Shown here: piece after piece, positions 58,972-60,041 of the stretch
Layout: each line of letters starts with the position of its first letter
Position numbering within the stretch: position 1 is the first letter of the stretch
NCBI GenBank assembly: GCA_015064205.1
Contig: SVSR01000001.1
Location: 155,143-219,142, forward strand
Direction: 5' to 3'
Source: Oscillospiraceae bacterium
GTDB lineage: Bacteria > Bacillota > Clostridia > Oscillospirales > CAG-272
Length of the DNA stretch: 64,000 bases
Position numbers and translations under genes: made by a program
The notes under the pieces: generated by a model
Database searches by the model: none
What the model saw: the letters and a program-made list of their open reading frames with translations, nothing else
What the model was told of the DNA's origin: nothing

Positions 58972-59238
58972 TTATATTTTATCTTTGTTTTTAACTATAA
59001 GATCGAAAGCCAAAGCTCCGGCGATTATAATAATAAGCGTAATCAGCGTGTGCTCAAGCATCAGGCGTGCAAGCGGCGCGGCTTCAAAAAATCTCATGCT
59101 TTCTTCGCTAGCCGAAGATATAGTAAGATCGTATTTGAGCCATGTTGCTCCGAGCATCGAGAGTATAAGAAACAGCCCACACTTTAATATGTAAAAAGAG
59201 TGCCTGCAAACAGCAGGCACGGTAAAGTTATTCTTCAT
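58972..59238 (-). CDS. Small hypothetical membrane protein
   Basis: 88 aa, two hydrophobic segments (LFLILSMLGATWL; LMLEHTLITLIIIIAGALAFDLIV). Confidence 0.5.
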   Translation of the reverse strand: MKNNFTVPAVCRHSFYILKCGLFLILSMLGATWLKYDLTISSASEESMRFFEAAPLARLMLEHTLITLIIIIAGALAFDLIVKNKDKI

Positions 59239-59307
59239 TTTAAGACCTCCGTGTTTACATTATAATTTTAACATAAACCGTGAAAGATGTCATCTATAAA
59301 AAAATAC

Positions 59308-59700
59308 AAAAGCAGGAATAAAACGGACCGGACCTGTAAGCCGGGTTTTGTTATAGACAATCATCTATCTTGACTGCACGTTGCCGTGCAGCTCCGAACA
59401 ATGTTCGTGCCACCAGAGATATTACGTCGGGCAAACGTTACTGAAAGTAAATCTCAGGTGTTGCTTCGGATAGGGTTTACAGCGAACCTATGTTACCATA
59501 GATTCGGGTGAGCTCTTACCTCGCCTTTCCATCCTTACCGCAAAATGCGGCGGTCTATTTCTGTTGCACTTTCCCGGGAGTCGCCTCCGGCGGACGTTAT
59601 CCGTTATCCTGCCCTGTGAAGCCCGGACTTTCCTCACGGTAATACCTTTCGGCAACATACCGCGCGATTGTCCGGTCCGGTCCGTTTTATTCCTGCTTTT
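59308..59700 (-). ncRNA. rnpB: RNase P RNA, bacterial class A (canonical part about 59324-59685)
   Basis: Minus strand gaggaaagtccgggcttcacagggcagg..., gggaaagtgcaacagaaa..., 3' end acccggcttacaggtccggtccg; P1 pairing cggaccgg/ccggtccg. Confidence 0.95.
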
Positions 59701-59706
59701 TAGCAT

Positions 59707-59735
59707 ATCGTAACACAAAGAAATAGTTTTGTCAA
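59707..59735 (-). promoter_or_regulatory. rnpB promoter
   Basis: Minus strand TTGACA (59730-59735) - 17 nt - TACGAT (59707-59712); predicted +1 near 59700. Confidence 0.75.
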
Positions 59736-59840: not shown

Positions 59841-60041
59841 ATGGATAACCGGAGAATGCCCGATGAGATCCCGATGGGATTTGCTATGAGCCTTGCTCAA
59901 AACAAGACAGCACTTGAAAAATACGCGCGCTTAGAAGAAGCTGAAAGACAGAGTTATAACGAGCGTGCCGCACACGCGCAGTCGAAAAGCGAAATGCGCG
60001 GACTTGTCAGCGAGATAGCGTCTAAAAACGACATAGGATAA
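59841..60041 (+). CDS. Small conserved clostridial-type protein of unknown function
   Basis: MDNRRMPDEIPMGFAMSLAQNKTALEKYARLEEAERQSYNERAAHAQSKSEMRGLVSEIA; the IPMGxxMxLAQN..SKxEM pattern is familiar from small clostridial proteins (from memory). Confidence 0.65.
   Translation: MDNRRMPDEIPMGFAMSLAQNKTALEKYARLEEAERQSYNERAAHAQSKSEMRGLVSEIASKNDIG

Follow-up and report, generated by a model that had tools for sequence, protein, structure and literature searches.

What is the significance of a P1 helix that runs far beyond its canonical length, out to the ends of the predicted transcript? RNase P RNA is present almost universally, and its P1 is generally regarded as a simple closing helix. The question is raised by rnpB of an Oscillospiraceae bacterium (contig SVSR01000001.1, assembly GCA_015064205.1), which is enclosed by a perfect inverted repeat. 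We analyzed this gene in a stretch of 64,000 nt of the contig (referred to here as "the window"; positions are numbered from its first base), together with rnpB loci of related bacteria.

Results

The covariance model for class A RNase P RNA (RNaseP_bact_a, Rfam RF00010) matches rnpB over model positions 1–367 with a score above the gathering score of 100, and the 5ʹ and 3ʹ ends of the RNA pair as P1, as expected of a class A member. By this match, the product is a class A RNase P RNA, which would be expected to process the 5ʹ ends of tRNAs. An inverted-repeat search identified two 27-nt arms, 59308–59334 and 59674–59700, that are 100% complementary and 339 nt apart. No second perfect inverted repeat that reaches 24 nt, with arms up to 500 nt apart, occurs anywhere in the 64-kb window, and simple arithmetic puts the chance expectation for such a repeat in the window at ~1e-9; together, these observations rule out a chance origin. 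In the Rfam model, P1 is 11 bp long, and its outermost pair corresponds here to 59683–59325. Beyond that pair the repeat adds 17 further pairs without a change of register, up to 59700–59308. Since Rfam's own P1 is 11 bp, we assign ~10–11 bp of the repeat to canonical P1 and 17 bp to an extension (Table 1). The original prediction for this DNA described the two arms as exact reverse complements and gave the sequence that follows the 3ʹ arm; all of its coordinates and letters are correct.

Table 1. Features of the rnpB locus, in the direction of transcription.
Feature	Position	Strand	Basis or detail
rnpB promoter	59707–59735	−	TTGACA, 17-nt spacer, TACGAT, upstream TG
5ʹ arm of P1 extension, 17 nt, AAAAGCAGGAATAAAAC	59684–59700	−	Repeat and pairing comparison
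Canonical P1 core, 5ʹ strand	59674–59683	−	Rfam match and repeat
rnpB, class A RNase P RNA per RF00010	59321–59683	−	257.6 bits, full model length
Canonical P1 core, 3ʹ strand	59325–59334	−	Rfam match and repeat
3ʹ arm of P1 extension, 17 nt, GTTTTATTCCTGCTTTT	59308–59324	−	Repeat and pairing comparison
U-tract GTATTTTTTT, putative terminator tract, directly 3ʹ of helix	59298–59307	−	7 T in 8
Promoter of downstream ORF, 14 nt past helix	59265–59293	−	Promoter prediction, ATGACA-17-TAAAAT
Downstream 88-aa putative membrane protein ORF, outside the RNA	58973–59239	−	L002 1152–1418; restricts the room for a terminator

The rnpB gene of this genus was also recovered from two other species, RGIG4639 (L003) and UBA4717 (L004). 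The 88-aa ORF downstream of rnpB has no Pfam match above the cut-off; L003 has a related ORF in this position, as does L004 when inspected by eye. A 66-aa ORF with no Pfam match (59841–60041, plus strand) is divergent from rnpB. The upstream neighbors of rnpB are not the same in the window and in RGIG4639.

To place this P1 among others, we measured the closing helix at 251 rnpB loci from the class: 3 from the genus, 119 from the rest of the family, 39 from the rest of the order and 90 from the rest of the class, the last two groups being enriched for high-scoring matches, such that the sample is biased towards the family and towards top scores. Helices were parsed automatically without gaps (i.e., without bulges), and the thresholds for U-tracts and terminators were of our own choosing. 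The median gapless closing helix is 11 bp in the family and order, and 12 bp in the rest of the class. The two longest of the 251 are both from this genus: 27 bp in the window and, with one mismatch, 26 bp in RGIG4639. When the 5ʹ flank of each locus was paired with the 3ʹ flank of every other locus, both genus extensions outscored all of the mismatched pairs. The arm sequence is present in 3 of 395 family genomes, all three from this genus, and when 84,980 species genomes were scanned, a set to which the window's own genome may not belong, only UBA4717 and RGIG4639 were returned; neither set contains the arm in any genus member beyond the same three species. A fourth genome of the genus, 51% complete, has no rnpB match. 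In the open-access literature that we searched, neither a lengthened P1 nor the use of P1 as a terminator turned up for bacterial rnpB; one apparent match to "extended P1" (PMC8172020) in fact refers to an "extended P15".

Comparison of the window with RGIG4639 suggests that the extension has been maintained as a helix. The 5ʹ and 3ʹ extension arms are identical at 15/17 and 16/17 positions, respectively, whereas identity in the adjoining flanks is 20/34 upstream and 19/35 downstream. Twenty-three of the 27 pairs are unchanged, two are changed on both sides and still paired, and two are broken (a core pair and the pair at the outer end), such that RGIG4639 retains 25/27. The compensatory changes, from the window to RGIG4639, are G-C to U-A in the distal arm and G-C to A-U in the core, and slid registers give zero pairs changed on both sides. 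Because both arms are readable in only two species, covariation is limited to this one distal and one core pair. The proposal that the 5ʹ leader and 3ʹ trailer form a P1 helix of about 27 bp is therefore supported, by arms conserved above their flanks and by one distal compensatory change. Covariance of the distal arms in relatives, which had been proposed as a check, was found in part: one distal pair compensates in RGIG4639, but the shuffle control (120/500), in which two sequences cannot discriminate, was not exceeded. Folding of the full transcript gave nearly all 27 pairs a probability close to 1, with a duplex ΔG of −48.9 kcal/mol. Swapping arms between the two species reduced the number of pairs from 27 and 25 to 25 and 24, a difference too small to serve as evidence.

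The third species, UBA4717, has a 3ʹ extension arm that is identical to that of the window at 14/17 positions, but the 5ʹ end of its rnpB is unrelated. The two parts of this rnpB are closest to different genera, the 5ʹ part to another genus and the 3ʹ part to the one studied here; moreover, the ComM encoded upstream is ~57% identical to the genus copies, compared with 73–76% for the other ComM of the same bin. These mismatched affinities indicate a chimeric contig whose two parts meet within rnpB, and UBA4717 therefore neither supports nor refutes pairing. We dropped it as a counterexample (a 3ʹ arm without a 5ʹ partner) and left it out of the pairing counts. The chimera is a public metagenome contig (L004/L164; G001:C188, DHJP01000184.1, UBA4717_contig_7576) with its junction in the conserved rnpB core, and its upstream 1.4 kb, encoding an acetyltransferase and ComM, is foreign to the genus. 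We predict that the true 5ʹ leader of UBA4717 will pair with the 3ʹ arm of that species (ATTCATGCGCTTCC or most of it).

The original prediction placed a TTGACA-17-TACGAT promoter on the minus strand with +1 near 59700; our analysis agrees, with a predicted +1 at ~59700–59701. Among the 222 loci whose promoter could be recognized, the P1 helix starts a median of 6 nt downstream of the −10 box, where transcription is expected to start; 6 nt is also the most frequent spacing. It starts at 6 nt in the window and at 8 nt in RGIG4639. Provided that the promoter is predicted correctly, this spacing therefore places the extension within the primary transcript. Measured from the −10 box to the conserved GAGGAAAGUC, the distance is 71–72 nt in these two species and 55–58 nt in most of the short-P1 relatives shown, i.e., ~14–16 nt further in the two. 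The promoter has shifted outward along with the helix, keeping the rule that the transcript begins at the base of P1, and the helix is predicted to extend to both termini of the transcript.

How does transcription of rnpB end? Judged on sequence, the 27-bp stem is followed by a U-tract with 7 T in 8 positions. There is no local terminator hairpin within 120 nt downstream of the helix, the last 85 nt of the transcript fold no better than shuffled sequences (z = −0.31), with no significant hairpin of their own, and the 3ʹ end of rnpB lacks the compact-loop hairpin of an intrinsic terminator. Because of this absence, we describe the helix as one that may work like a terminator rather than as an ordinary member of that class. 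The promoter of the downstream ORF, only 14 nt from the helix, leaves little room for a separate terminator. As read from the alignment, a downstream promoter (TGACT-17-TATAAT) is found in the same place in RGIG4639 and UBA4717.

A local terminator hairpin is present in 199 of 250 relatives (about four fifths). For the genus, family and order, it is absent from 19/31 loci with a U-tract right after P1 and from 20/129 loci without one (p = 8e-7), these being counts of phylogenetically non-independent loci with no correction for relatedness. With the class-wide parser and all 250 loci, kinship again being ignored, the figures are 20/45 and 31/205 (p = 5e-5); the association is not seen at the class level alone (0/8). 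In three loci (L040, L059 and L051), a U-tract follows right after an ordinary 11-bp P1, with no downstream hairpin. These examples suggest that use of P1 as a terminator is a recurring option in the order, of which the window would be an extreme form. A P1 of ordinary or slightly greater length, followed by a U-tract and without a hairpin, was also observed in L022, L023, L028, L012 and L163. Within the genus, the distal tract varies: the window has a strong one, that of UBA4717 is shifted by a few bases, and that of RGIG4639 (TTTTACATTTATTG) is weak. The proximal segment just past canonical P1 (GUUUUAUUC/GTTTTATTC) is identical in all three members and could itself be the terminator tract. 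The suggestion that the helix could double as a terminator whose 5ʹ arm lies ~340 nt upstream is supported only indirectly, by the missing local hairpin, the lack of room and the U-tract association, and the weak U-tract of RGIG4639 speaks against it.

A lengthened P1 was also found in a second genus from this family (g22, with six species: L013, L017, L269, L270, L271 and L272), where P1 is ~10 bp longer and its arms covary: there are 13–14 pairs within species and 8–10 in nearly all combinations across the two subclades. The sequence differs from that of the genus studied here, and the origin is apparently separate. In g22, rnpB lies close behind an upstream gene on the same strand (encoding 301 aa in L013), with no promoter at the helix, and a hairpin terminator follows in several members. 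These features indicate that P1 lengthening is not always about termination.

Discussion

We are highly confident that the P1 of 26–27 bp is real and specific to one small genus of uncultured gut bacteria. This RNA is not a new kind of RNA; rather, it is a variant of a known RNA in which P1 has grown from ~11 bp to 26–27 bp. As in other class A RNAs, P1 pairs the two ends of the molecule and its core aligns readily to the model, and as in relatives, P1 begins at the predicted transcription start; in contrast to the usual class A P1, the helix is 27 rather than ~11 bp long.

What is the function of the additional 17 bp? From the repeat, its conservation, the limited covariation, the position of the promoter and the absence of another terminator, we infer that transcription may terminate at the distal U-tract and that the ends of the RNA may be protected. 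Transcription would start at the 5ʹ base of the helix, as the promoter suggests, and the ~340-nt ribozyme would be made first. The 3ʹ arm would then emerge and zip up with the 5ʹ leader, beginning at the GC-rich P1 core, continuing through the A:U stretch and finishing at a GCAGG/CCUGC clamp next to the U-rich tract. The completed helix would act as the stem of an intrinsic terminator with the whole ribozyme as its "loop", and would keep both primary ends paired and shielded from 5ʹ and 3ʹ exonucleases. On balance, we favor this dual role for the extended P1, as a clamp on both primary ends and as a long-range intrinsic terminator, albeit with moderate confidence. A further suggestion is more speculative, and we consider it doubtful: if termination needs the first and last bases to pair, release would be efficient only once the ~340-nt ribozyme is complete with its 5ʹ end intact, a form of completeness check.

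The proposed terminator resembles conventional intrinsic terminators in having a stem directly followed by a U-rich tract, with GC-rich sequence close to the stem base. It differs in that the 5ʹ arm is ~340 nt upstream, the "loop" is a folded ribozyme and the stem includes a long A:U stretch. A functional RNA fold is also nested in a terminator stem in the HMP-PP riboswitch, an unusually small, terminator-embedded aptamer that binds a ligand and regulates a gene (PMC6478431). In the case of rnpB, by contrast, a whole constitutive ribozyme would be nested, and no regulation is implied.

An alternative explanation, which we judge unlikely, is that the long P1 is a processing stalk: RNA polymerase would read on, and the mature ends would be set by RNase III or Mini-III cutting a duplex of >20 bp, or by the duplex stopping RNase J and 3ʹ exonucleases. 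RNase III requires a duplex of roughly 20–22 bp. The 27-bp helix exceeds this length, and each of the three genus members encodes a pair of proteins with a Ribonuclease_3 domain that match RNase III and Mini-III in size, respectively; RNase J is encoded in two of them. The lengthened P1 of g22, which lacks its own promoter and is followed by hairpin terminators in several members, also suggests that lengthening can serve something other than termination. Furthermore, in Staphylococcus aureus, another low-GC Gram-positive bacterium, RNase J trims the 5ʹ end of a read-through RnpB transcript, and P1 is proposed as the protective barrier (PMC3937233), although the sections of that report considered here describe neither a lengthened helix nor P1 as a terminator. 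With genes for RNase III-type nucleases and RNase J in the genus, and given the S. aureus case, we regard end protection as a natural second benefit, and cutting by RNase III as a real alternative. However, the predicted +1 in the window is the first base of the helix, leaving no 5ʹ leader to remove, and read-through is unneeded for a downstream gene with its own promoter 14 nt away.

It is also rather improbable that the extension merely stabilizes P1, or arose by drift, with a functionless distal arm and with termination occurring at the proximal U-rich GUUUUAUU after canonical P1, or being undefined. The constancy of the proximal GTTTTATTC in the three genus members, where the distal U-tract is variable, is consistent with such an explanation, as are the relatives L040, L059 and L051 with their immediate U-tracts. 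Nonetheless, 25–27 pairs and a compensatory change beyond the proximal tract are unlike drift, and the arms are conserved above their flanks. Lastly, although transposon ends are typically perfect inverted repeats that flank a gene, as this repeat does, there is a negligible likelihood that it is a DNA-level feature, and mobile-element ends are ruled out: the arm occurs at a single locus, with no further genome copies at up to 2 mismatches, its inner 10 bp are the ribozyme's own P1, the arms are kept in place in the sister species, and the flanking sequence has no target-site duplication at the repeat ends.

If the structural part of our proposal alone holds, the extended P1 is a neat but minor variation. 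With P1 reaching both predicted transcript ends, a shifted promoter and no separate terminator, this genus offers a natural setting in which to test intrinsic termination at long range, with a large folded domain between the arms. The U-tract comparison suggests that, in the order, the structural helix of an essential RNA has repeatedly been recruited as its own stop signal. If termination does depend on pairing of the first and last bases, a completeness check would be built into the transcription of an essential catalytic RNA.
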